64,000 nt of DNA from Bolinopsis microptera. Lineage: Eukaryota; Ctenophora; Tentaculata; Lobata; Bolinopsidae. Below the pieces are notes generated by a model that was given only the letters and a program-made list of their open reading frames with translations, had not been told where the DNA came from and made no database searches. The translations under genes and the position numbers were made by a program. Positions 1,747-57,852 of this stretch are shown here, piece by piece (position 1 is the first letter of the stretch; the number at the start of each line of letters is the position of its first letter). The DNA is taken from positions 13,065,118 to 13,129,117 of the forward strand of contig NC_087078.1 of assembly GCF_026151205.1 (NCBI RefSeq), written 5' to 3'.

Positions 1747-2552
1747 CTACCTTACTCGGGATTATTATGACCGGGATAAAGTGGTGGGTTTAGGGTAATT
1801 TCGCCATATTTTTCCCGAACCACATTTTTACCGGTCGTTAATAAACCCGCCTACTCAGCTTTTAGGGTTCCCAAGGGGTATGGGTGCTCATATTTTAATC
1901 GTTGTCTTATATTCACTAAAGAAGACTATTGGGACACTTGTTGTAGGTTTTTCGACTTCATTTGGCTAAAATTGCAAAAAATTCACCTTTTTGCCCAATT
2001 CTTGTCATATATCCTTATTGTCAAATTTGATTTAAATAGGCCAATTTTTAATTTCTTAGGTATTGACTATCTCTACATAATGAAATAGGACTCAAAGTAA
2101 AAGTAACAGTTAAATCAAAACTTGAATTAATTAAAACTGATGAAAGGGATGATCCAGATGAAGATAACGAAGATGATTACAACTTATTGGAAGACTAAAC
2201 AGCTCTCCCTTTATCTTAATATCGATCTGGTTGTTACGCTTCAAATGTTAAAAATTATTTTCCATCTAGTTTGATTAACCACGAGTCATTATTTCTGTCT
2301 ACTTTCAACAATTATTGATAATTCGACTTGTTTCACAAGTTTTAGCAATGCGAAAATTTCTAAACTTGCTTATCTCTAATAAGGAAATTTACATCTGAGA
2401 CAAAATTTTTGAATCTAAAATTGAAAGGTTGGACACCGGTAAAATGGCGACCGGGAAAATGTGGTGGGTTTCGAGCAATTTTGCCATATTTTTCCCGAAC
2501 CATATTTTAACCGGTCGTTAATAAACCCGTCGTAATAATCCCGAGTAAGGTA
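1747..2552. mobile_element. Non-autonomous inverted-repeat element (about 0.8 kb)
   Basis: The ends are a 20-21 base inverted repeat: CTACCTTACTCGGGATTATT at 1747 and its reverse complement at 2533-2552. Inside each end lies a direct copy of an about 85-base block (near 1768-1850 and 2447-2530) sharing GTGGTGGGTTT, CCATATTTTTCCCGAACCA and TTAATAAACCCG. The core holds a short acidic open segment (see findings). The right end abuts the LINE reading frame at about 2553. I could not establish a target-site duplication, so the superfamily is open. Confidence 0.5.
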
Positions 2553-5500
2553 GTTCAAACCATTCAAGGGATAACTAGAGTTGCTAAACGTGGAGACAAT
2601 TTTACCCAGACTACTATTGATGTAATATTCACTAACTGTTATGCAGATTTTGTTCAATCTTCTGTTCTTGATGAACGTATTGGGGATCATCAAGCTATTA
2701 TGTGTGAGATAGATTGTAAAGTACCTATAGCTCCTAAATTTGAAAAGGTTGAAATTAGAAATCATTGTAAACGTAATGTTAAACAATTCCTAGACTATCT
2801 AGACACCTGTTCTGATTACAGTCCACTATTGGAAAGTACAGATGTTGAAGCTATCACTGCTGGCCTTTGTCATCATATTGAACAGGCATATGCAACCTTC
2901 TTCCCTTGCAAGACCATAGAAAGGCATGAAAAGTTCATACATAAACCTTCTACTGAACTTTTAAATGCCATTAATCATACACATTTTCTTCTAAAGAAAT
3001 TCCGTAAAAAGAAGGATAAGAGAGACAATGGAAATTGCAATAAATGTGGTATATGTAGCAAATGTATAAAGTGTAATGAGGCCTTGGATTGCTACAAGAT
3101 TCAGAGAAATATTAGAAATAAATTAGCTAAAACCTGCAAAAAGGCTAATGTAATCGATGATCTACAAGTTAAAAGTGCCAAGAATGATCTTAAAGGGGTA
3201 TGGAAAACTATCAAACTGGCATCAAATATGACCCCTGGCACAACTAATTGTCAAACTATCAATGAGAATGATCCTGAGCTATTTAACTTTCATTTTGCAA
3301 ATGTTGGATCAAGATTACAAAATCAGGCCCCCAATATTGAAAGAGTTAGTTTTACTGATTTTTTAACTCCTAGAACTTCTAACATCTCATTTGATAGATT
3401 CCAAGAAATAAATGAAACTGATATCCTAATGTATGTCGAAACGCTCAAGAATGACAAGGCCTCATATGACGATGTGCCTCTATTTTTACTTAAGCAAGCT
3501 GTACCACACATAGTTGAGCCACTGACCCATATTGTCAATTTGAGCCTTAATACAGGTGTTGTACCAACCCTTTGTAAAAAAGCTAGAGTAACTCCCATCC
3601 ATAAGGCAGGAATGAAAGATGATCCTAATAATTACAGGCCAATATCCATCCTTCCACTTGTAGGAAAACTTACAGAATACTTTGTCGGCAAGCAACTCAC
3701 TGATTACATGGAAGAGAACAAACTTTTCATCCGGCATCAATATGGCTTTCGGAAAAATCACTCCACAACTTATTTGATGTACGATCTGATGGACGAAATA
3801 TATATGAGTAAATCTAAGTCTTATAAACCAGGAATCATCTTTCTTGATCTTAAGAAGGCCTTTGACACAGTGAATCATGAAATATTGCTTCAAAAATTGG
3901 CATATTATGGAATTGGTGGCATTGCTTTAACCTGGTTTAAGAACTTCTTATCTTGTAGATATCAATGCACAAGGATTAATGGCAAACTAAGCTCATTTTT
4001 AGAAGTTCTGAGTGGTGTACCACAAGGAAGCATCATTGGGCCTATATTATTTAGTATCTTCATAAATGACATCATTTATGCCTGTAACCTATCTAAGCCC
4101 TTTCTATTTGCAGATGATGGTGCACTATTCTTTGATCAAACCTGCAGAAGCACATTTATAAACATGAAAATAGAACTTATGACAATCTTTAAATGGCTCA
4201 GTGTTAATAAGTTATCACTCAATGAAAAGAAGACTGAATTCCTATTATTTGATTCTGTTGATAAACATGATGAATTAACCATTGAATGTGATGAGGTAAC
4301 TTTCACAATCAACGAGTGCAAAGAGACAAAATATCTTGGCCTCATTCTAGATAGTAAATTAAACTTCAAAAGCCATGTAGATTATATTATTAGGAAGGTC
4401 ATGAAGAGAATTGGTGCCATGTATAGAAGTAAAGCACTGCTACCCATTAAATATAGGAAAATGTTTGCCAATGCACTCATGTTGCCACAATTCGATTATT
4501 TAGACACGATCTATTGTAGAGCTGGCAAGACAAAACTTGCTGAACTTGACACTCTGTACAAAAAGGTAGCCAAAATAGCTCTCAACGTTCCACAAACAGA
4601 GAGCAGCCTTAATGTTTATAGAGACATGAAATGGTTACCCCTCCATCTTAGACGACAACTCCATCTGTCAAATTATATGTTTAGAATCATCCATGACAAT
4701 TGTCCTACAAACTTTATGAACAAATTTAGTTACATATCAGGAGGTAGTAGGAGCGGTGAAAGCTGCAACCTATATGTTAATAGATCAACATCACATAAAA
4801 ACTTTCAATACTTGGGGGCAAAATGTTGGAATAATGTTCCAACAGATCTACGAAATCTGCCCGATGTTAAAAGCTTTAGTGATTCGTATAAGAAACAGCT
4901 ACTCTCATCTATAACAACAGACCCTAATTATACCGTCGACAATTCATATGACAAATTTTACACTGCAATCATAGTCGACGATAACTAAGCATCTTCTAAT
5001 TCTTTTAAATCTGAGGCATATATAATTGATGTATCGAAAGGATTTTCCCTTTTTACCACCTTACCATTTTGATTGATTTTGCACATGACTGACATGTTTT
5101 AACTGGAGAAAGGGTTCGCACAGTGGTAGTTTTATAAACCACTTTTAATTTATTGACCTATTATACCTAGTGGTAGTTTTATAGACCACATTTAATTTAT
5201 TTACTTCTTATACTTAGTATTTATTTTTGGTGACTGTATCACCCAGTTTTAACATTTGATAATTGTACAGTTTATTGACGACACATTGACTGAATGTTAT
5301 TTTATATTCTAATTTATATTCTAGATATTTTATTCATTTTTCAACAGACGACAACTTCCTGGTTTTTCTTCTATATTAGTTACTCATATCTCTTTTACAG
5401 ACTTTTTTACAAGGACATTGACAGATGATACTCACATTAGGCATTCATAATTGCATCTAAATTATTTCACTTGCATTAGGTTTAGAAATTTATTCTCTGG

Positions 5501-9943: not shown

Positions 9944-14507
<4,564 letters not shown>

Positions 14508-19012: not shown

Positions 19013-22000
19013 TTAGGCACCCATGGATAAGAAAAATCCAGGATAAGATCCTTCGTCATTTGATCCATCGCCCATTCCTAATCCAAATCCAGGATAAGAT
19101 CCTTCGTCATTTGATCCATCACCCATTCCAATCCAAATCCAGGATAAGATTCTTCGTCATTTGATCCATCGCCCATTCCTAATCCAAAAGCCAGGATAAA
19201 AATTCTTCGTCATTTGATCATAACCCACGCCTAATCCAAATCCAGGATAAGTTCTTCGTCATTTAGATCCATCACCAATTCAATTCCCAAATTCCAGGAT
19301 AAGATTCTTCGTCATTTGATCCATCACCCATTCCCAATCCAAATCCAGGATAAGATTCTTCGTCATTTGATCCATCACCCATTCCCAATCCAAATCCAGG
19401 ATAAGATTCTTCGTCATTTGATCCATCGCCCATTCCTAATCCAAATCCAGGATAAAGATTCTTCGTCATTTGATCCATCACCCATTCCTAATCCAAATCC
19501 AGGATAAGATTCTTCGTCATTTGATCCATCGCCCATTCCTAATCCAAATCCAGGATAAGATTCTTCGTCATTTGATCCAATCGCCATTCCTATACAAAAA
19601 AGTTGTTTTTGGGGGGGGGGGATCCATCACGGTCATTGAGCGACAATCAGACGTTTAGACTCTTCACCATTTTCGTTATCATATCCATAATCTTGATTAT
19701 CGTCAATATCTTGATTATCGTCAATATCTTGATTATCGTCAATATTTTGATTATCGTCAATATCCTGATTATCGTCAATATCGTCTTGGTCTTTTTCGGG
19801 CGTCCAGGGTTGATCATCATAATCTTCTTCTCCTTCATCCCAATAAAGCTTCTTGGAAGGGCTACCTTGACTATCGTCATAATCAAACCACCTCCATGGC
19901 ACTTTAGACCAAGTTTGATAAACTACTGATAACGTCCCCACTCCCATCTGCAGATAGATAACAAGTTAGAATATTCAATCCGTTTCAATTTTATCCTATG
20001 TACTGTATACAAATTAAAAACTCTCGCGACTTTAATTATGAATTATAAGAGAAAAATCTTACATAAGATGCTCAACAAATTATTCTTTTTTTTTTTTTTT
20101 TGTTTTTTGAGAGGCGGGGCCATGATGCCCACGAGGGATTGGCATTGAGATGCTCTGCCCTACCTCTGGGGTGTGGCACCCTTGGGAAGGTTGCGGTGAG
20201 ATCCCGGAGTGATTGATGGAGGGTGGTGTTAGGATGTTATATGAGTCAAAATGGATACGCTCTCTAAATGCCAGCTGGGTTTGGAGGAGTAAAACGAGAC
20301 GAGACAGCATATGAGATAATACTTTAAGTCACCCCGGTCTGATCCAGCTCTTCCGGCACAATTAAGCGTTTGGTGCGGTTTGTGAAATTGACAATTGTGG
20401 TGATGTGTTGGTTGTCGAATATGTCGTTGACAGAGAGGTAGTAGTCCTGGAAATATTGACCTCTAATTTGGGCAATAGCCGGACACTGTCCAAGGAAGTG
20501 TGAGACAGTTTCCTCTCCGTCCCCGCACATAGGACAAGCACTGGTGTTTGATTTGCAAATGGTGTGAAGGTGTTTATTTAGGCCGCAGTGACCCGTGATG
20601 AGGTGAACTGCAGTTCTGTAATCTTGTCTGTTGTTGCTGAGTGTAGTGTTGAGGTTTTTGATGATTTTGGCATGCTTGTGGCCGAGTGTCAGTTTGGTGT
20701 GTCTGGGACCGTCAGTTGACCAAGTTTCCTGATTCAGTCTGTTGACTTTGTTGTCGATTTGACGCTTGATGTAGGATTGTGGAATTGGACACCTCAAAGT
20801 GGATTCGCTGATAGTGCCAAGCTTGGCCAGCTCATCTGCTTTTTCGTTCCCCCACAATCCGATGTGTGCGGCAATCCATCGTATATCTAGCGTGTTGTTG
20901 GATCCGAGTGAATTAAGAGAGTCGTAACAGTCTCTTGTAGTTCTACTCCGCGTTGAAAGTGCGGAGAGAGCTTGAATAGATGATAGACTGTCAGACCAGT
21001 TATTATTCTACAATGTTGCAAAATTATAGAAATCCAACTTGTAATAAATTGTAATTTAGAATCGGTCAAATTTAAAACCACATGACAATTACGTATACTA
21101 AATTAATATTTTTATTCCACTTCAAATTATGCTTAAGTTAACTCACACTTTCGGTATCATCACAGATTCTGCTGGTTACTACACCATTAACCGATTGTCT
21201 TTTGCATTGGGGATTATTCGAAATCCCTAACTCTATGGTAATCTCATACTTAGATCCAGCAACAACCTGAATTTAATTTCATAATCATAAAGAAATGTAT
21301 TTGATTTGAATTGCTGTATTTTAAAATTCCTATCCAGAACACACAAAATGCGTACACAATTTTACAAACCGATTCCTGAATTTGAATGATTTCTCCTATA
21401 ACTATGGTATCCCGAGGCTTCATATTTCCAATACTATAGGCTCGTCTTTTAAATTCCATCAACATCACCTTCAGGGCCTTGTTGGTTTGTTCGTCCGCCA
21501 TGTTGGCGGGAACAGCGCCACCTGAAAATAGAACAAAATTACAACTTTCAGTTCCCTGAAATATTAATATTCGGAGAATACGAATGTTATTGCTAAGACT
21601 AGACTTAATCCTGAGTAAGTTTCAAACTTTGAGCATGAGTTTGTTAAAGCAAAACCCTTTCCAAGATTTATTTATAGCCACTGCTATACTATGACTACAA
21701 CAAAAAGTATAAGCTAAAACCAAACTACATTTGCCATAACGATCATATTTGGAATAAAATATCTGTTGGCTCGAAGTGGTGCAGGATGTTAATCTTACTG
21801 GGACTAAAACTTCGTTCAAGTTCTACGAAGTCCCATTCGATCGTTCATTAGATTACAAATTGTGTATTTTAATTAAGTTGATAAATTCAAACGAAAAAGA
21901 TACAGTTTCCAACGTGAGTACCTGGTATAAATCCGTTTTTTGTTGCCTCATTTATTCGTCTGTCCCTCAACGCCGTACTCAAATCTGCACAATTGTACTT

Positions 22001-22707
22001 TGAGTCCATTTTTTCCTTCGAACAGAGTTTTTGGAGTTTCCGTTCACTCTGCCGGCAACCTTTTTCCTCCTTCTGTGTGAGCTTGTTCAAAGTAGGTGAA
22101 ATTTGTCTCCTTTTCCGCTTCTTCTTATCAGCTTTACCATTGAATCTGGTTCTTGTGTCAAAAGCCTCCTCTTCTTCCTCCTCTTTGAGTTTGCGCTCCT
22201 CTTTGTAACGGTTCTCCTTGCTTTCAGTTGCTTTTAAACCCTTGTTTGCTATCGCGAAGGATTTCGCGGCGCACTTGAGCCATTTCGGTTGATAATCTGA
22301 AGTTTAAATAAAACAAGCGTTAATACTTTTAATTTTATACGATACGAATCGATATTGAATAATTAAAAACAGCTACAGTCAATTTAAACCACTATAATAA
22401 CTGCAGTAGTAATATGCGCATTTATGCCTACAGCATAGTATACCATTACCAACTATCGACTATAATTACAGGTGCCAAAAATGGAACCAAAAAGTCACTT
22501 ACTCATCGCTAGGCACCCATCGATAACTTTTTCGACTTCCCAACATGATGAATAATCATAGTCGTCGTCCAGATCAGATACCTTATTCTTTTTTGATTTC
22601 GAATTCTTTTTTCCTTTTGATTTCTTTTTATTCTTGCCCTTTTTCTTCGCACTGATGACAGTCGCGCAATAACTGAATATCAGAATGAGACAAATCAGTT
22701 TTAACAT
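19013..22707 (-). CDS. Chimeric secreted cystatin: Lys-rich N-part, cystatin domain, acidic and 17-aa repeats
   Basis: Assembled on the minus strand from exons 22707-22503, 22296-21922, 21521-21370, 21266-21147 and 19947-19013; junctions are GT-AG and phases agree. Order: signal peptide (MLKLICLILIFSYCATVISA); a Lys/Ser-rich block (KKKGKNKKKSKGKKNSKSKK); an acidic DLDDDYDY and a two-Cys stretch; a 125-residue charged exon with further Cys; the cystatin domain (PGG, S-VVAG, CKRQSVNGVVTSRIC, QTW); five DIDDNQ-type hexapeptides; then about eleven copies of a 17-residue unit (DGSNDEESYPGFGLGMG) and a stop after FLSMGA. Estimated length is about 595 residues. The VVAG exon is 120 nt, exactly as in the neighbouring cystatin gene. 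A run of about ten G (plus strand, near 19611) interrupts the frame between the two repeat blocks, as do small indels in some units; sequencing error is plausible. Function beyond a cystatin fold is unknown; secretion is inferred. Confidence 0.75.
19030..19590 (-). repeat. 51-bp tandem array encoding the 17-residue repeat
   Basis: About eleven head-to-tail copies of a 51-bp unit (plus-strand landmark TTCTTCGTCATTTGATCCAT) at spacings of 51-52 bp. Since 51 is divisible by three, each unit adds 17 residues to the last exon of the chimeric cystatin gene. Individual units differ by substitutions and a few single-base indels. Confidence 0.9.
19690..19785 (-). repeat. 18-bp tandem repeat encoding DIDDNQ
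   Basis: Five copies of an 18-bp unit (plus strand TCTTGATTATCGTCAATA) encode the acidic hexapeptide DIDDNQ or NIDDNQ on the minus strand, inside the last exon of the chimeric cystatin gene. Confidence 0.9.
20087..21001 (-). mobile_element. 5'-truncated I/R1-type LINE tail with RNase H domain
   Basis: The minus strand reads through the end of an RNase H domain (WSDSLSSIQALSAL, then GNEKADELAKLG) and a Cys/His cluster (TGHCGLNKHLHTICKS, CPMCGDGEETVSHFLGQCP) typical of I, R1 and related LINE clades. The stop is near 20324, and the 3' UTR ends in an A-tail (T run at 20087-20101). The element is flanked by ATTATTCT at 20079-20086 and 21002-21009, a fitting 8-bp target duplication. The insertion lies in the last intron of the chimeric cystatin gene, in the same orientation as that gene. 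Confidence 0.85.
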
Positions 22708-25137: not shown

Positions 25138-25584
25138 GTACGAGGAGGGCCACTAATAAAAAATATAGCACTTTCGAAAAAATATACATTTTTTAGTATG
25201 AAATATATAGAAAATATAGAAAATATAGAAAATATATAAAATATAGAAAATATAGAAAATATATAAAATATATAAAATATACAAAATATATAAAATATAC
25301 AAAATATATAAAATATACAAAATATATAAAATATATAAAATATATAAAATATACAAAATATATAAAATATACAAAATATATAAAATATACAAAATATATA
25401 AAATATACAAAATATATAAAATATATAAAATATATAAAATATACAAAATATATAAAATATACAAAATATATAAAATATACAAAATATAGCATTTATAAAA
25501 AAACATACTTTTTTTAAAAACGTACATTTTTGTAAAACGTACATTTTTTGTAAAACGTATATTTTTTAGTGGCCCTCCTCGTAC
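25138..25584. mobile_element. Inverted-repeat element with a 9-bp tandem core
   Basis: The ends GTACGAGGAGGGCCACTAA and TTAGTGGCCCTCCTCGTAC are inverted repeats. The core (25205-25490) is a tandem array of a 9-bp unit, AAAATATAC or AAAATATAT. Long apparent reading frames of I, Y, L and F through it are artefacts of the array. Confidence 0.75.
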
Positions 25585-27394: not shown

Positions 27395-27930
27395 TCATCT
27401 AATATCGCAAATAATATTCATATTCCTTATATCAAGAGAATATAATTCCTCAAAGTCACTTAACATCCCAATCAAAGTCATTTATATAAAGAGACTATAA
27501 TTTCTCGAAGTCACATAACCTCCGCAATCAAAAGTTCCCTTTATATCAAAGAACTATTATTCCTCAAACGTCCCTCGGATAATCCCAATCAAAGTCCCTT
27601 TATATCAAGGATGTTTATTCCTCAAAGTCACTTAACATCACATAAAAGTTCCTTATATCAAGAGACTAATTTATTCCTCAATGCCACTCAACCACCCAAT
27701 CAAAAAGGTCCTTATAGCAAGAGACTATTATTCCTCATTGTTACTTAAATCCCAATCAAAGTCCCTTATATCAAGAGACAATGTATTCCTTAACGTCCTT
27801 ACTATCCAATCAAAGTCCCTTATACAAGAGACTCTTATTCCTCTATGTCACTTTACAATCCCAATCAAAGTTCCTTATATCAAGAGACTATTATTTCTCA
27901 AAGTCACTTAACATCCCAATCAACTTTTAT
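27395..27930 (+). repeat. About 55-bp tandem array
   Basis: About nine diverged units with the core CCCAATCAAAGTCCCTTATA, then TCAAGAGACTATTATTCCTC and AAAGTCACTTAACAT. Spacing is 51-60 bp, so it is not a coding period. Flanking sequence is AT-rich and featureless. Confidence 0.8.
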
Positions 27931-39008: not shown

Positions 39009-42000
39009 GATACCTTTGAACGAGGTATGGAGATACACGCCAAGATGACCATGTTTGCGGAGGGTTGCCATGGTCACCTCTCAAAACAACTGTTTGATAA
39101 GTTTGAACTCAGGAAGAACTGCCAGCCCATGACATATGCAATTGGAATCAAGGAGGTAAGTCAGTACCGCTGCTCTTTTATTGTTTTCTTCTAAGTTGAA
39201 GTTTGAATTTGACACCGTGTCATCTCACAAATAGACGACAATCACATATTATAATATATATGGTGACGTGTTACAATATAGTCACGTGTTACAATATAGT
39301 CACGTGTAACAATATAGTCACGTGTAACAATATAGTCACGTGTTACAATATAGTCACGTGTAACAATATTGCAGTTGTGGGAGGTTCCAGAAGAGAACCA
39401 CGAGCCGGGATTAGCAGTACACACGGTGGGCTGGCCCATGGAGCACACAACGTACGGGGGTGGGTGTTAAACTTAGTTTATAAATTAATTCTTGTTAATA
39501 AGTTAATATGAGAAAATACTACAATATAATCAAGGTACGATGTTGGATACCTGAGTTCTATATCTTTCGATAGCAACTCCATCTATGTATCTGCTTAGCT
39601 TCCATCACTGATCCTGGTACTTGAGATTCCAGGTGTGGCTTTAAACAATGTTTTAAGGGCCCAACACTCAGCTCACTCAGTTGATGGTAGAACAGTGGGT
39701 CTTTGTGCGATGTTGTAGCAGGGACTCCACTTCTTGTTTTCTCTTGCTAACCAGATTGCATAGGAACATCTGAGAGCAACCAAAGCCGCCTCTTGGAACA
39801 CTGCTTTCTTTACTCTCTTTGTAACACCAAAGTAGTTTAGTAGGGCTGGTAAGGTATGATGCCAGAAGCCTCTACACCCAACCTCTACCGTAAAAAGCTG
39901 AGCTTTCCACCCACTGCCATGCAGCCCAGGAATAAGCTCTCTGTTGTAACGTGCTTGTTTACGTTCTACTTGGTCACTAAAGTTACTCTCGTCACCAACT
40001 GTCAACTCTACTAATATGACCACCTTTCCTTTATCAGACCAGACTACAATATCGGGACGTTCTGCAGTTCCGTAGATGTGCTGGGGGAACTGTGCTGGGA
40101 GGTTATCTTCGTCCCAGATAATCTGCCAATCTTGGTCTTTCTCAAAAGGGCTCTCTCTTTTCATCTTCGTCTTCGGTTTTTGGTAACAGCTGCTAGATGA
40201 CTTGAAGCCTGTCCAGTCCTGAACTTCAAGTTTAAAATCTTTGTTGTTGAACTTCTCGATTTGATCCAGTAGTGATTTCGCAATGACCCGCAGCACGTTG
40301 TCATGCCTCCAATTGTATCGTTTGTTGTTCAGCGAGAAGTTGCAAGCTACCAAAATGTGCTTAATGTTGCAGTGTCTCCATCCGCAAAGTGGACAGTGTC
40401 CTGTGTCAGCATAGTTCCACAGGCTCATGTTTGCTGGAGTATTTGCAACGTCATGGGTTGCATTGAGGTGGAACTTAAGAAGAGCAGGGCTCATCTTGTA
40501 GTTGTAAATAAGGTTGTTCCAACCTAGGTCTAGCTGCATGGTGTTTTCCCATGTTAAGAATTGTCCTTGAACTCCCTTGTCTACCAGTGTCAACAGGATA
40601 TCCTGCTCTGAGATGTGGGATACCAGTTCTTTCAGTTTTTCCTTTTCACTGGCTACACTCCTCTTGGATCCCAAGCCCATCCTGCCTTGCACTGTTACCC
40701 CTACTAACTCTCTGAAGTAGAGATCTCTTTCTCTAGCACTCAGCTCATTAGTGTAACCCCACCGACTGCTCCCTTCTTGTTTCTTGGCCCTGTGCTCGTA
40801 GACCTCCTTAACTTTAGGATCCTTGCTGTTCTTTAGAGAGTAACCTTTGGACACCTGAAGGAACTTGTATAAGTCCGATAGTCTTTTAAGATTCAATCCA
40901 AAGCAATCCTTATTTCTGTAAAGCACACTGACAGTAATTGTCTTTGTTACACCTAGCCATTTCTTCAGATACTTCGTATATATTGCTTCAAGATCTTTGA
41001 CAAAACTAACCGGGAGATTGTAGATCATCAGGTCCCAGGAGAGCTTGCTGGTTAGGAGGTTGTTGTAAATCCAGCATTTCATCACTCCATTAAGGCCTGA
41101 TCCGTCCACTGCCTGAAACAGTGTAATCAGTTTGTCTTCTATCAGCTTCTTGGTATCTTTGAGGCCCAGATCCACATATATCCAATGGCCAAGAAACTTC
41201 ATCGGTGTATTTCCAATAAACTGGATTTGAGCTCCATCTATGAAAATTTCAGGGTCATAGGACACATACCTTCCATCTATAACCTTCATCCCCAGGGATA
41301 CGCATTTACTCGGCTTGGCTTTCATTTTCCTTGACCAAGTAAGAAATCTTTCCATCACATCTATTAGCTTCTTCATCTTTTCCAGCCTGGGAGACATCAG
41401 AGTTAGGTCGTCAGCAAAAGCACGACTTGACGTGCTGCTAGAACTAAAAGACGGCTTGTAACCCAAGTCGCTTTGATTTATAAGTTAATAAATAAGTTAA
41501 AAGGTTAATAATTTAATAAGTTAACATTAATTAATAAGTTAATATTACTGAATATATACTAGTCAATAAGTTAATTTTGGTTAATAAGCTACCAAATTGG
41601 CGGGCTTAGAAGTTTATTTTATATTCACTATTCAGTCTAATAATTTAGTCTAAAATAACTTATATAGGGGTTCCGTTCAGGCCCTTGACACTTTGTTTCT
41701 GTCTGGTTCTAATATACCGTTACAATAATGACTTTAATATGATATTAAGCTCGATCAGTAAGTAATGTGCTAACCTCTCACTTCTCTGTCAGGAAGTTTT
41801 CTCTACCATATTAACGATGGTCCTCTGGTGGCTTGTGGTTTTGTCACCGCACTTGATTACAAGAACACCTACTTGTCCCCTTTTAAAGAAATGCAGGTAT
41901 GCTGATCACGTGACATGTTCGGAATTGCTGCATATTATGGTTTTCTAATATTAATTTCCATTATTTTGTCGAGCCCTGTGACTCCCTATTACGCTATTGC

Positions 42001-45000
42001 TTCCCCGGTGTCACATTTAAATTAGTGACAAATTCAAATTATATTGTGACAGGTATTGTATATTGATTTAATGTTACCTGAGGCGCGAAATGGAAAAGTT
42101 GAACTCGAAATCAACCACTCAGCCTTGGGTATATTTTATATTATACTGCTCATATTAAAATAAATATATATTATAAGGTGCTCAATAAAGATTTTCGGTA
42201 ATATCCAACTATTGACATTAAAGTAGCTGTCAGAGAGCTGCTTGAGTGGTAATTGAAAGCGGCGCTTTACCAGTTAGATGATTTCCATCGGGGAAGTTGC
42301 CACTTCATGGTTGTATCATATCATAATATATAACGCTAACTCTTCGATAGCTTGATAGACATTCAAAACGCTCATCAGTCCTTATTTGATGTGATAAAAA
42401 CTGACTGCCAAAGAAATAGAAAACTACTAGCTTCATCCCTGTTACCACGGGCTTTCTATATTATGAAGATAAGGCTATATAAAGTACAATAAATAACCAA
42501 AAACTGTCCAATTTCCGCCAGACTGTCACAAAACGAAAATAGCAAAATTAGGGTTAACATCTTAAATTTGAATTTTCAGAGGTGGAAGACGCACCCTAAG
42601 ATAGCTGCACATCTTGATGGTGGTGAGAGGATTATGTACGGGGCGCGGGCTCTCAATGAAGGAGGATACCAGTCTCTTCCAGAAATAGTGTTCCCAGGTT
42701 ACTAGAATTATAGTATTTACACTTTACGGGTTATTACAAATATTATTTACACTTTACCAAATGTTAGAGCATGTGTTCCGCCTTCACAATTATCAATTAC
42801 CGATTACCTAACGATTATATGCCAATAACCGATTACAATTACAATTCCCCCAACGACCCTGTGTTCAGGTGGACTGATGATGGGCTGCAGTCCTGGGTTT
42901 TTAAACGTTCCCAAGATAAAAGGGACTCACACGGCCATGAGATCCGGCATTATCGCTGCTGATGCCACCTTCGACAGTATAGTGAACGGTCACCTCTCCA
43001 TGGAGAAAGGTATTGTTTATTGCGCGAGTAACGCATCCGGTCGAAAGTAGAAGTCTGAATTTTTCCCTTTTGACACATTCAATACTGAGTGTCATTTCAT
43101 TTCATTAATCAAAGGACCTGCCTGTCACGTATATTTGCTTTATCACGTCACTACAAACCACCTGTCAACCACGAAATTAAATGGAATTCTTGATGGATAC
43201 CTCGAATCAATTAATAAAAATCAATTTTCAAGTCCTCTTGAAGTGGAAGTAAAAACAAAAATGTGTATTACACGGAACAATCTCCGTTATTAACTTCTTG
43301 CTTCTATCAAAGGTTAAACACTATAATAAGTATAGAAGTCTACTGTCCCCTTCTATTAAATTGTTCTTAATTAACTCCTGACGTCTGTCAAAGTTTAACT
43401 ACTATAAAAGCCTTCTCTCCTACTTCTATTAAATTATTGTTAATTAACTCTCTCTACCAAAGTTTAACTACCATAAAAAGTGGACCCTCTCACATCAAAG
43501 TTTAAACCCCCACTTTTATTCAGGTGAGGTTTTAGAAACTTACAAAGAAGCGCTAATGAACAGCCACGTGTGGGAGGAGCTGTACGCTTGCCGGAATGTA
43601 AGACCTTCTTTCTGTACAAAGGCTGGTCTATGGGGAGGTGTGTAGATTGAATACTTTTAAACTTTAAAGCAACTTCAACTGAATATAAACTGAATAGAAC
43701 CCGGAACACCATTAATTGAATCTCAAAAAGCATAATATGATACAGAATGTTTATGTACATTGCATTAATTGCATAATGCATATGTTGCATAATAATTATC
43801 AATTAAAATCAATTAATTACCGCCAGGAATGTTGTACACGGGATTGTTCTACGTGGTACTTGGAGGAAAAGAGCCCTGGACTCTGAAACATCACGGAGCT
43901 GACAGTGACTCTCTACTCCCTGCTGAACAGAGCAAAGTCATTGAATACCCTAAACCAGGTTAGAAGTTTTATTAGAATGAACAGGATACCCTAAACCAGG
44001 TTAGGAGTTTTATTAGAATGAACAGGATACCCTAAACCAGGTTAGGAGTTTTGTTAGAATGAACAGGATACCCTAAACCAGGTTAGGAGTTTTATTAGAA
44101 TGAACAGGATACCCTAAACCAGGTTAGGAGTTTTGTTAGAATGAACAGGATACCCTAAACCAGGTTAGGAGTTTTATTAGAATGAACAGGATACCCTAAA
44201 CCAGGTTAGGAGTTTTATTAGAATGAACAGGTCATGGATACTGGAGAGAATGAAATGCTCACTATCAGGAGAACCGGCATTGATATAAAGGGGTGGAACC
44301 GGAGTTCAACTGTATATCTTCCAGAACGGAACTATGTAGATATAACTTGGGGCTCAAAACCTGATTATCAACTATCTTGGCCTGCTACCTTGAAGTTAGC
44401 TCTAGTTTATAATCTAAATTTCCCAGATAACAAGCTGACGTTTGATCTGCTGTCCTCGGTGGCACTGTCCGGTACTAACCACGAGGGTGACCAGCCCGCT
44501 CATCTCACTCTCAAAGATGACTCTGTTCCTGTGGAAAGGAACTTGGGTCTGTTTGACGGACCCGAACAAAGGTTTGTACTTTCTTCGAAATAAAATGAGA
44601 ATTGCGAGCTTTTAGGATACTTGTAGTGTAAAAGCAACAAATAGTGGAAAAGAATAATCAGCTGAGAATATCTAGAAGCTTTGTACAGAAATTGTAGGCT
44701 AATAGATAGACATAATGAGACAGCTCCAGACAGTTCTTACTGGAATCCCCCCCCCCGCCCCTACAAGAAGTAAAATAAAAGTGCCATGGAAAAATCTCCG
44801 TTATTTTCTAGAATTTTTGTACAGAAATAGACATTCAATTTCCGACAGTTGGAAACTATACGAAGCCAGCAAATTCTAGTACAAAGGATTCTAGAAAATG
44901 TGAAATATGATGATGAAGGATTAGCACTTTCATGTGTGGTGTTTTTTAATCCTGTGTTATCCTCTCAATACTGAAAACACTCGATTATAACCCATGGTTT

Positions 45001-48325: not shown

Positions 48326-51300
48326 ATGACGGCTAGCAAGAAGCAGCAGCGCTGGTATTTGGGTGGGATGGGGGCTTGTATGGCTGTCCTCTTCACTCAC
48401 CCGCTAGATACTATTAAAGTCCACCTCCAGACTCAACAAGGTATGTTACTCATTTATATTACTGGTATACCCAATTTATTTTATTTTTTCGGTTATTTTA
48501 CCTTTTTTCCAAGTCAAAATCCAGGAGACTAAAAATATCTATTGTAATACTTTGAAACTTGTTTAATTAATGAAATGATCTTATTGACCATGGGAAAATG
48601 GTAAATATGGAGATTATTATGGAGATGGTCACTTTATATCCCCAATATTGGTTCCATTGGTGATGTCCCAATTGTATGTCACAGTAAATTTAACGGCACG
48701 GTTAAACTCTAAGTTTGTTGCAGTTTTGCTAATTGCTCCGTAAAAAAACCTTATTCAAGTTAAATGTACTTTTTAACGTGCTCGATTTTACGATTATTCA
48801 TAACCGTGACGTCCGCCTACTTGACCGAATCATTTGAAATGGTCAGCAATCGTGGTCGTTGTATAGCAGTTGTATCTCGGTTACAAAAACTTGAATCAGA
48901 TGTTTAACATACTATACCTGTCTCGACATTAATTGACAGACATGACGCACATCAACTTAACCGACGTATTCGACATGGTTATTCATGACAACTTCGATTG
49001 TCTGTCAAGTCTATGTGAGTTTGTATCGGTGCAAAAACTTAAATATGCTTTTAAAAGTACCAAATTGTACGATTATATATAGTCAAGTTGGAGTAACTCG
49101 TGTAATTTCACTGCAGAACAGTGTCACTATCAACCATGAAGCCAATTTAAGTTTTAACCGATAAAGTACTATCGAAATAACAGTAAATTAAAATATATGT
49201 ATATATATGCACTAACAAATTAAATAATAACTAACAAATCTACAGATAATAATAACTCCAGGAAAAGATCCAGTACACAGGGTGCTTGTGAAAACTCTGA
49301 AAACTAACGGGATTATGGGGATATACAGTGGTCTTTCAGCGTCAGTCCTAAGACAGGTATTAATTGTTCCTCACTGCAGCTGCTTTTTAATTTTATTATT
49401 TCAGAGCTTTTAATCTAGAAGTGAAAGAGATTCTCCATATTATGGTGCTAGGGTGTGCCGTGTGGACTAGCTACAGTATACACCTCTTTAAAATGTATTT
49501 ATTTGTAGATGTGAAAATATTTTATTTATAGATTATGTATTTTATTTGGGATGATACTAATACGTTAATCTACAAATCCACAATATTGTGTATAAACCAT
49601 GATATGTAATAATTACCGCCGCCAGGCTACTTACACCTCCGTGAGATTTGGAGCGTATGAAGTAGCACGTGCTCGACTAACCCCGCCGACGGTACACCCT
49701 TTACCCTTCACTACTAAGGCAAGTTTATTCAGATGACATTTTGGGTATTTTTACTGTGTTAATTTTTTGAAAAAACAGGATATAATTTTTGAGAACTTTT
49801 GATCCTTGTACTGTGAATTGATCTTTAAGTTTTCCTGTAAAGTTTTTTTGACGGCCCCAACGTTAATGTGGCTCTTGCTATGTGTTGGTTCAGCGAATTA
49901 ATTATTATGTAATCAAGTTTATTTTTCTCTTTTAGTTAGTTGTCATCCGGCCAAACATTAAGCAATTTATTGCAGTTCCATTTATCAATTAGTATATCAA
50001 AATATGTCATTGTAATTTTGCATGGCTGAAATGTAACGCTTGATTTATATATATAATAATTAATTGAATTTTCAAATAAAAAAAAAAGTAAAGAAAATCT
50101 CGAATTCCCCAAATATCAAATATGTTGCAATCATCCTCAGCCTAGCCTCCATCCACCGAACCATAATATGAATATTCCTAATAGAAATAGTAATGGGATC
50201 GTCAAATTATTCGCTGCAATTTAATCAACTAACTCCACGGAAACGAACTTTAAAATTAATAAGGATTTATATAATGTTATATTTATTATATTAAATTAAT
50301 ATTGTATTAATTTCAGGTTATGCTGGCTGCTGGGGAGGAGCTATAGGAATTCTTGCGGGTAAGAGTCTCCTATTTAAATTATAGTTATTTTAGGGGGGGG
50401 GGTGAAGAGGGGGGGGGGGGAGTGTCGGGGGGGGGGGGAGAATGGGGGGGGGGGGGGGGGGGGGGGGGGGGGAGGGGGGGGGTGGGGGGTTGGGGGGGGA
50501 GTGGGGCTGATTTTGATAGAACAATTTTTGTACCACCCCTCCATTCTGTCTCCATTCCATTCAAAGCTCTGTGTTGGCTAATTGTAAATCTCATTTTTAA
50601 CTTAATGTTGGAGTAAAGAAGCGTGTCGCATGTGGTTTCTTTCCTTCCATCCTTACTAAATAGTCTTAGCTTAGTTTAGATTGCTTAATATTGTTTCTCC
50701 TTCAAATTTCCATTGCCATTCACACAGTGAGATTATTTTATTTAATTACGGGTTTGATTTGTGGTATGGTACCTAGTTTGAAGCATGTAAGATTTTGAGG
50801 CACGCATGGATGTGAAAAAGTCTTGTAACATTAGGCTATTTACTCTTGGGCTATTTCTCATGATTTTGAAATTACAATTAATCTTTCTGTTTTGTATTGA
50901 CTCTGATTCCAACGCAATTACGTCAATGTTGACCTGTGTTTTAAAATATTCCCCTTTATCTTTATTTTTGGATGGATTCTACGTGATTTTACAAATGAAT
51001 TTATAGGTTTTAAATTTTCATGTGGGTGGATTTATGAGCTTTGGTATGGGTGGGCAACTGGTGTTATGGGGATAGAAAGTTTACAAAATATCGGAGAATC
51101 ACTTTCTAAAAACATTTTAAGATACTCTATTCGTAAAATGATTCATATTAACGCCAAATTGATCATGTCCTATTACGCCTTTTCTAACCGGAACACGAAT
51201 TGCCGATGAATAAACCCCCAAACGGCTGAATTGAATTTTTATGTGAGTTCGTAAATCAATGACATGATGCCCATTGCACAACCCTCCAGTCTCCAATTAA

Positions 51301-52724: not shown

Positions 52725-53203
52725 TGCAACGTGGAATAATGTCAGTATTCCATAAGAACCCCAAACTGACAAAGACATTAATTGACATTAATAGACATTA
52801 ATTAGACATTAAATTGACATTAATTACATTAATTACATTAATTGACCTTAATTTTAATTGACAGCAATTGACATTAATATGTCTTGAAATTAGAGATTAT
52901 CATTATTCGATTAATATTCAAGATATTCACGTCCTATGTAAGTTAGACCGGTTCAAAAAAACTAAATGTCCTTGAAAACTTAATGAGAATGTTCTTATCC
53001 TGTTGATCCATTAGCTTCAAAGACCACCGAAACAAAATTACAGCTTCCAAAACTCTTCCATCTTCGTCCCAACACACCCACGCCCGATATATTAAGTTGG
53101 TTTTCTTTATACAGGTAAAATATCTAGATCGTGCTTTTTTTTTTTAGTATGAAGGAGTAATGTTAGCTGAGAGATCGGGGGGGGGGGGGGGGGGAGGGGG
53201 GGT

Positions 53204-53240
<37 letters not shown>

Positions 53241-53254
53241 GGGGGGGGGGGGGG

Positions 53255-53288
<34 letters not shown>

Positions 53289-53700
53289 GGGGGGGGGGCG
53301 TTATTCCAAATAGAGGAAATTCATGCGAGGGCATTCTCGTTAAATGTGGGTTGTTAAGTTCTGATGATGTTGAGAACCACGCCCTTGGATGGGGCCACAA
53401 ACCCATGTTAAGAAAATTTAATTTCGGAAAACCGTATTTATTTTAGTTTTATTGTTTAATGATCTGAATTTTTACATTTCTACATTTCCATATGTGATAG
53501 TAGTGAATAAATTGATGATTAAAAGTTCAAAGTGCTAAAAATTGGAAGAAACTACAGAATCTCTCTGGTCAAAAAATGCGTGTCAATATAATGTCAGTAT
53601 TCCCAAAAATTTGGCAAAACACTGACATAGACATAATTGAACATAATTGACATTAATTGCCATAAATTGACATTAATTGACATTAATTGCCGTTGCATAC
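52725..53700. repeat. Paired ATTGACATTA arrays around a G-rich tract
   Basis: AATGTCAGTATTCC followed by degenerate tandem ATTGACATTA units occurs at 52737-52880 and again at 53590-53695. Between them, at 53177-53300, lies a tract of over 110 G with a few A and T. Confidence 0.7.
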
Positions 53701-56918: not shown

Positions 56919-57103
56919 ACCTGTGAAATGTGACACATTGCATACATGAGGCCCTGTGTGTAACTGTAATGTATGTTGGAATAATTTAATTAATTATTTA
57001 ACTATCTGCTATGGTAATGGTATTGTATGCAGTCATCGGTGAATAGACATTGGTAGTTTGGGGGGGAGCTTGGGGCTTTCACGATAGGCTTTCTGCGACC
57101 CAT

Positions 57104-57852
57104 ATTTCACTGTTTTGACTAAACTTTTCAAAAAGGTGAAGTTTCTTGGTGTTATTATTGATGATCAGCTTAAATGGGATGCTCATATACGGTCGCTCAA
57201 CACAAAGCTGAAATGTGAAAGTGGGAAAATTTGTAGAATACGGCACATTATTCCAGAAAAACTCTACAAAGAACTGTACTACACACTATTTGAATCACAC
57301 TTGCGATTTGGGATATCAGTATGGGGTGGCCTTAGTAACAACAGGCTTGAACCAATATTTATCACTCAGAAGAAATGTGTTAGAATACTATTTGGTAACC
57401 GAGAGGCGTACTTAGAAAAGTTTAGAACTTGTGCTAGAACACGAAGTAAAGACAAGCAAAAATTAGGAAGCGACTTCTATGAAAAACAGCACACAAAACC
57501 GCTATTTAAGAAAAATGGTTTACTAACCATACACAGTTTGTTCAAACACACATGTTTATTGGAAATGTTCAAAATCAATAAATTAGAATCCCCAGTCCCA
57601 CTCCTAAATCTATTTAACAGATCATCAAGACGTGCTGATCGATTCATCACTCCAACCCCATCCACCTCCTTCATATATCAATCGACAAAAATGTGGAACG
57701 ATTGTAGAAACACTGCTAGCAATATCAACTTCTCTACATCAACGAACCTTGTGAAATCCACAATAAAAAAGGAGTTACTCGGCATGCAGTCCAGGTACGA
57801 CGAAATAGATTGGTGTGAACTGAACTTCGATTCCAACGAACTGAAATTCTAA
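57104..57852 (+). mobile_element. LINE reverse-transcriptase C-terminal fragment
   Basis: The frame reads KFLGVIIDDQLKWDAHI, YKELYYTLFESHLRFGISVW and so on to FDSNELKF and a stop, matching the RT thumb and C-terminal region of Jockey/CR1-superfamily LINEs. Palm and endonuclease are absent. The left boundary falls inside a satellite-like half-unit (TTCTGCGACCCATATTTCAC at 57090), so truncation or insertion happened there. A GC-rich then T/A-rich 3' region continues to roughly 58490. Confidence 0.8.

Follow-up and report, generated by a model that had tools for sequence, protein, structure and literature searches.

A stretch of 64,000 nucleotides from the ctenophore Bolinopsis microptera (contig NC_087078.1, positions 13,065,118 to 13,129,117; referred to below as the window) carries on its minus strand a gene, named here W, in which a cystatin-like domain is joined to a lysine-rich head, a cysteine-bearing charged region and an acidic tail. 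Its five exons join in phase (0, 1, 1, 0, 0) into 388 codons and a stop, as assembled. Comparison with two sister genes of the same genome, A and B, indicates that W is a real gene and a member of a real family, which is constrained as coding sequence and has an unusual layout. The W family is a cystatin chimera in an animal group for which we found no earlier description in the literature searched. A search by title found no description of a chimeric cystatin from ctenophores, with terms that miss texts using only 'Ctenophora' and with subscription journals mostly uncovered, and a combined-term literature search for the layout of the chimera found none.

The preliminary description of this DNA had proposed a five-exon chain of consistent phase, of which exons 1 to 4 stand as it gave them and exon 5 begins, as it had said, at 19947. 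Exon 1 (22707-22503, 205 nucleotides (nt)) encodes a signal-like hydrophobic start (residues 1-20, by eye), a Lys/Ser block (residues 20-42, window 22650-22582), an acidic spacer, Cys55 and Cys65, and ends in phase 1 at GTAAGT; its homologue in sister B has 211 nt (L016:6533-6743). The order after the hydrophobic start is thus AKKKGKNKKKSKGKKNSKSKKNK and then Cys 55, 65 and 77, the last of which lies in exon 2 (22296-21922, 375 nt, symmetrical in phase 1-1). This exon continues with a charged stretch containing a furin-type site (KKKRKRR/Q, window 22126-22103) and with Cys149, Cys160 and Cys171, and holds the end of the Cys module. Exon 3 (21521-21370, 152 nt) encodes the first half of the cystatin-like domain, from its start at GG194 to the first loop, while exon 4 (21266-21147, 120 nt, phase 0) encodes the VVAG of this loop, Cys265 and Cys279. 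Exon 5 as assembled (19947-19633, 315 nt including the stop) contributes the last cystatin strands and the acidic tail, in which five DIDDNQ-type repeats are present (window 19782-19693). Every block that the preliminary description had named, up to and including the DIDDNQ repeats, has a counterpart in our chain: its signal peptide as a hydrophobic N-terminus, its cystatin fold as a cystatin-like domain, and the Lys/Ser block and the charged region with Cys as it gave them.

At E up to 0.1, the 388-residue W protein matched the genome 15 times at the level of exons, five times in W itself, eight in the two sisters (C7:16.88 Mb), one in an intronless copy on contig C10 (named R) and one in a simple cystatin gene (named S). 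Sisters A and B are located on the same contig as W, 3.8 Mb away, and have the same exon order and the same introns inside the cystatin part. Exons 3 and 4 measure 152 and 120 nt in W, A and B alike, and the symmetrical exon 2 has 375 nt in W and 342 and 336 nt in the sisters. The intact sister B (L016:6533-9460) encodes 606 residues, with Gly/Tyr/acidic repeats of its own running in frame to the end; its last exon of 996 nt contains GYEYGGGLLGSSPYGIGNENDDDYND-like repeats in an open frame of 364 codons. Exons 2 to 5 of sister A are open and encode 28-residue acidic repeats (84-base unit). The net charge of the tail is -24 over 77 residues in W, -46 over 173 in A and -60 over 304 in B. The proposed chimeric layout is thus supported, because two sister genes repeat it, one of them with a long in-frame Gly/Tyr/acidic array in its last exon, but a W protein that includes the eleven 17-residue repeats once assigned to it is not supported by the assembly. 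A query made of the B repeats matched only B's own gene (five matches), a count that may be low since repetitive queries are possibly under-reported.

The Cys module appears to be particular to this family within the genome, as a query with it gave four matches, in W, A and B only. Its profile matched none of the PDB sequences at E up to 10, and against Pfam only chance-level matches were obtained, in one of the three members. Exon 2 of W, when folded alone from the single sequence, gave three helices at low confidence (mean predicted local distance difference test score (pLDDT) 72.7, predicted template modelling score (pTM) 0.28). Nonsynonymous (dN) and synonymous (dS) divergence were estimated for each part. 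Between W and B, the values are dN 0.45 and dS 2.42 for the Cys module, dN 0.36 with saturated dS for the cystatin part and dN 0.54 with saturated dS for the tail. Between W and A, they are 0.44 and 1.43 for the Cys module, dN 0.33 with saturated dS for the cystatin part, and 0.65 and 3.16 for the tail. In both comparisons dN is well below dS, and W is therefore constrained against its sisters.

Assignment of the domain rests on its relatives. R scores 25.8 bits against the Pfam cystatin family PF00031, above the curated cut-off of 22.2, whereas S (20.2 bits) falls below it. W matches R over W residues 178-323 (E 2.2e-21, 32% identity). When a five-member profile, with R and S among its sequences, was compared with the PDB, the first 20 of the 38 sequences at E up to 1 were cystatins, and only one match, the best (1.3e-4), lay under E 0.001. 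Because R passes the Pfam cut-off, W matches R and the top PDB matches of the profile are cystatins, W is taken to be cystatin-like by descent; inhibition is not claimed. The GG near the N-terminus of the domain is invariant in all five sequences. The Gln of the first-loop motif QxVxG is kept in the relatives of W (QTVAG in B, QAVSG in A, QVVAG in S and R). The Trp of the second loop is also invariant (5/5), the aligned pair being TW in W, AW in B and PW in A, S and R, with an extra PW a few residues further on in W, A and B. In place of the two conserved disulfides of family 2 cystatins, a single Cys pair (265/279 in W) is present in all five aligned domains; the conservation of cystatin bridges is one of the assumptions argued against in a passage of PMC2784779. 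Each gene model of W, A and B contains one cystatin unit, and not several as in kininogen, histidine-rich glycoprotein (HRG) and fetuin. A further stretch of the genome, G000:C3:16130834-16130965 (L015), matches PF00031 at 25.6 bits, over the cut-off, with one internal stop, and is unrelated to the chimeric genes by tblastn.

The gene S suggests how the chimera may have arisen. It is located on the same strand as W, 3.5 kb past the W stop, and its four exons (16154-16069, 15803-15647, 15515-15396 and 15121-14999, minus strand) encode a simple cystatin of 161 residues. Both internal introns of S coincide with those of the chimera, being of phase 0 with a 120-nt exon between them. The first intron of S is 5 nt off that of the chimera (phase 2 against phase 1), so this boundary is similar and not identical. 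S ends at GPELKSLWVDGAN, where the chimera has GSPSKKLYWDEGEEDYDD and continues. The copy R on C10 (L018:1906-2379) is also a simple cystatin, intronless and open over 157 codons, and is probably a retrocopy of an S-type gene. The simplest account is that the chimera would have been formed by a new first exon, one symmetrical front exon and an extension past the old stop, followed by repeat expansion.

The end of W needs separate consideration. The preliminary description had carried the last exon to 19013, so that it would encode about eleven 17-residue repeats. The chain is right up to 19633, but the remainder is wrong as assembled, since exon 5 runs into a TGA (19635-19633), followed two codons later by another in the same frame. 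The repeats do exist in the DNA as an array of 10.9 units of 51 bases (GLGMGDGSNDEESYPGF, a 17-codon repeat; 19034-19592, minus strand), which lies downstream of the two stops, falls in all three frames and is not part of the W protein as assembled. Among its three sense frames the unit has a single open one, which is in register with exon 5 where the array begins; one antisense frame is open too. The 11 units are spread over all three phases relative to exon 5 (4, 4 and 3 units) because of 14 single-base insertions or deletions (indels) against the consensus, of which 10 are in units 5-7 (counted from 0); a 7-base gap at the edge is additional. Of 16 substitutions, eight are in units 6-7, and the other eight comprise six synonymous third-position changes and two of Glu to Gly. 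A query of three consensus units matched the W locus only (five matches, with the same reservation as for the B repeats). Long poly-C/poly-G tracts recur in the window (13030-13062, 50393-50499, 53177-53298 and 19611-19621), including a run of 11 immediately before the array.

As assembled, a single continuous last exon to 19013 is rejected because of the stops and the frames. Both stops would be skipped, and the frame kept, by a candidate intron of 78 nt (19667-19590, minus strand). Its donor and acceptor scores (-0.9 and -4.7), however, are lower than those of any of the 15 introns of the family (lowest 1.9 and -1.1), and on the minus strand of the window 47% of GT and 63% of AG sites score as high. 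Even with this intron the frame breaks in the third array unit, and the sisters have no intron there. Six GT sites in all were paired with one acceptor, of which two (19667 and 19652) enter the array frame; the donors scored (19667, 19660 and 19652) are all below the 15 family donors, as is the acceptor below its counterparts, and such introns are thus unsupported. It is plausible that indels were left over in a tandem array, because wtdbg was used to assemble the B. microptera genome and pilon to polish it, with continuous long reads (CLR) among the libraries named; CLR and HiFi libraries are named jointly for three species, and the hifiasm assemblies are those of sponges (PMC10232365). The two TGA codons would require further errors, and the array of sister B is clean in the same assembly. 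The array is best read as a former, or mis-assembled, coding tail of W.

Two explanations of the W locus itself turn on this array. That the last exon does run from 19947 to 19013 and encode the eleven repeats we regard as doubtful: the open sense frame in phase with exon 5, the coding tails of the sisters and the synonymous third-position changes among the substitutions outside units 6-7 (six of eight) speak for it, whereas the stops, the use of all three frames, the lack of support for rescue introns and the need for assembly errors in several places speak against. Alternatively, W might be a decaying paralog that is losing its tail or its function. The two in-frame TGA codons and the 14 indels would agree with decay, as would the unbroken array of sister B in the same assembly and a piece of a non-LTR-type (non-long-terminal-repeat) retroelement in intron 4 (20080-21007, minus strand; its 3' part with an A-rich end). 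This piece makes up most of the intron and so explains why the latter is long (1199 bases); its RNase H match of 25.7 bits falls just short of the cut-off (25.8), and its zf-RVT match of 19.5 bits clearly does (27.5). However, exons 1 to 5 are open up to the stop, and in comparison with either sister their dN is far lower than dS; indels left by the assembly are plausible (PMC10232365), and 10 of the 14 fall in three adjacent units. We consider decay unlikely. It may also be asked whether the exon chain is a chance product, or a mis-joining of unrelated open frames, as the weak scores of W taken alone might hint; the recurrence of the same chain in three genes and dN below dS render this most improbable.

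What the protein may do can be proposed from its layout. The explanation that we find best, to which we tentatively assign a probability of roughly 45%, is that W encodes an extracellular cystatin chimera, split by furin, which is anchored by its charged ends in mucus, glue or matrix and restrains papain-family proteases there. The W protein is predicted to be secreted, given its signal-like N-terminus. R-x-K/R-R is the motif rule for furin substrates, and such a motif is found as RKRR/Q in W and as RQKR/Q in A and B. Cleavage by furin would follow RKRR in W and RQKR in the sisters, and would separate an N-terminal chain rich in lysine from a C-terminal chain with the cystatin part and the acidic tail. 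Three Cys residues on each side of the predicted cut may pair and hold the two chains together; because the furin-type site sits between three Cys and three Cys, a disulfide-linked product of two oppositely charged chains is suggested. The charged ends would then serve as anchors in mucus, glue or matrix, and the cystatin part would restrain papain-family proteases there. The last tail block of W would either have been lost to real stops and frameshifts or be hidden by assembly errors, and the intact sister B has such a tail.

Proteases of the kind to be restrained are encoded in number. At least 154 exon-level matches to the papain family (PF00112) are present genome-wide, with 150 of 281 candidates scored, and each of the best 20 matches (L020-L039) falls within one open frame of 302-515 codons. 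The active-site Cys motif was found in eight of nine loci checked among 20 of the papain family, L023 giving no match to the pattern; a sponge or silicatein reading was considered and rejected. This set suggests that the family has expanded greatly, with few introns inside the domain. A review (PMC6733828) reports tryptic and cathepsin-B-like activities in Pleurobrachia and speculates on secretion of lysosome-type enzymes into the pharynx. A secreted cystatin held in mucus or glue by charged ends would suit this setting, in which papain-like proteases are many and cathepsin-B-like activity occurs in ctenophore pharynx material. A more specific version, in which one gene supplies a lysine-rich polycation and an acidic-repeat polyanion as partners, split by furin and held by disulfides, with the cystatin part protecting the glue, or the mucus of the pharynx, against endogenous cathepsins, would appear rather doubtful.

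Several observations weigh against the proposal of a furin-split, charge-anchored inhibitor. W itself scores only 12.5 bits against PF00031, below the cut-off, and B has no match at E up to 1; a genome search with PF00031 reached two places (R and one on C3) and no chimeric gene. The best PDB match of W alone is chicken cystatin at E 0.48. In the first loop, W reads SVVAG, and the inhibitory power of W is doubtful because Ser replaces Gln in QxVxG. Exon 1 of sister A (L016:2074-2306) is out of frame as assembled. Between A and B, the cystatin part (dN 0.13, dS 0.15) bears little sign of constraint; the corresponding values are dN 0.10 and dS 0.20 for the Cys module, and dN 0.52 and dS 0.46 for the tails, which align loosely. 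This pattern points to fast divergence of A and B after a recent duplication, with little constraint in the cystatin part and the tail. The hydrophobic N-termini of W, B, S and R were judged by eye, and the furin cut, the cross-chain disulfide and the anchoring are inferred from sequence.

A related explanation dispenses with regulation of proteases. The protein would be a polyampholyte structural secretion, in which cationic chains and acidic, Gly- and Tyr-bearing chains condense to form a glue (as might be made by colloblasts) or a mucus, with the cystatin part serving as a scaffold or shield and not as a regulator. This overlaps with the explanation preferred above, so that the odds of the two are not exclusive, and we consider it somewhat unlikely. 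It is in keeping with the blocks of opposite charge, with long repeats that differ in sequence among the paralogs and are acidic in all, and with the loss of the Gln from the first loop of W; a cystatin-domain transcript is moreover listed among genes of the Hydra basal disc (glue cells) in a section of PMC5080974. Retention of that Gln in A, B, S and R argues in the opposite direction. The structural role with an inhibitor module that the preliminary description had considered is possible for the predicted secreted product. The mineral-associated role also raised there looks unlikely, because the only ctenophore mineral known to us is the statolith.

Scans of the window with Rfam and ARAGORN found nothing. 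An open stretch of 34 residues at 13172-13273 (plus strand) resembles an exon of a RuvB-like helicase. Open frames of 825, 603 and 254 codons at 2511-4985 (plus), 39676-41484 (minus) and 57088-57849 (plus) begin with residues that look, by eye, like retroelement polymerase. Further tandem arrays lie at 43945-44231, 27425-27923 and 25205-25488, with units of 41, 55 and 9/18 bases, respectively. In the genome at large, the glutamate-receptor ligand-binding family (L056-L067) has 32 matches, 10 of them in open frames of at least 900 codons, with clusters on C12, C8, C6 and C3. The S1 piece of one such receptor (L063) is matched best in the PDB by ML032222a of Mnemiopsis (116 bits), followed by 4zdm of Pleurobrachia (100 bits) and CG3822 of the fly (76 bits). 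For a full-length receptor (L061), the ten highest PDB rows are kainate-2 receptors, and ML032222a ranks eleventh over a far shorter chain. A search for COX1 gave no match.

Among known systems, the chimera is closest in its domain to family 2 cystatins (MEROPS I25), with which it shares the GG, a QxVxG-type loop, the Trp hairpin, a signal-like start and two intron positions inside the domain, one at the first loop and one ahead of the last strands. Vertebrate type-2 cystatin genes have introns at about the same places. The chimera differs in its added cationic head, six-Cys module and acidic repeat tail, in having one Cys pair in the domain, and in the missing Gln of W. Kininogens and HRG, in which cystatin units are joined to charged surface-binding regions and cleaved chains are held by disulfides, resemble it in combining cystatin units with charged regions. 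However, the chimera occurs in a ctenophore and has a single cystatin unit, with a head rich in lysine and an acidic tail. Repetitive acidic or basic proteins are found in matrices and glues, and the chimera is like them in its blocks of opposite charge and its short tandem repeats, a likeness of composition. The cystatin transcript of the Hydra basal disc likewise places a cystatin domain in an adhesive secretory tissue of an early-branching animal, but its product is listed with 136 residues (PMC5080974).

To our knowledge, cystatins joined to charged modules are known from vertebrates. Kininogens and HRG are given as vertebrate-specific multidomain cystatins in PMC2784779, a 2009 survey according to which protostomes and deuterostomes are the only animals with multidomain members. 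Its count is one of repeated cystatin units and was made before ctenophore genomes were available, and it is thus not a like-for-like comparison with the chimera. The joining of a cystatin to charged modules seems, from the genes described here, to have arisen separately in a lineage near the root of the animals. Its likely steps are visible in one genome, as a simple cystatin adjoining, a symmetrical front exon, an extended last exon and tail repeats specific to each paralog. The ctenophore adhesive is called undescribed in a passage of PMC6278862. If the proteins are made, they would provide a handle on ctenophore secretions and on how these may be protected from many papain-like proteases.

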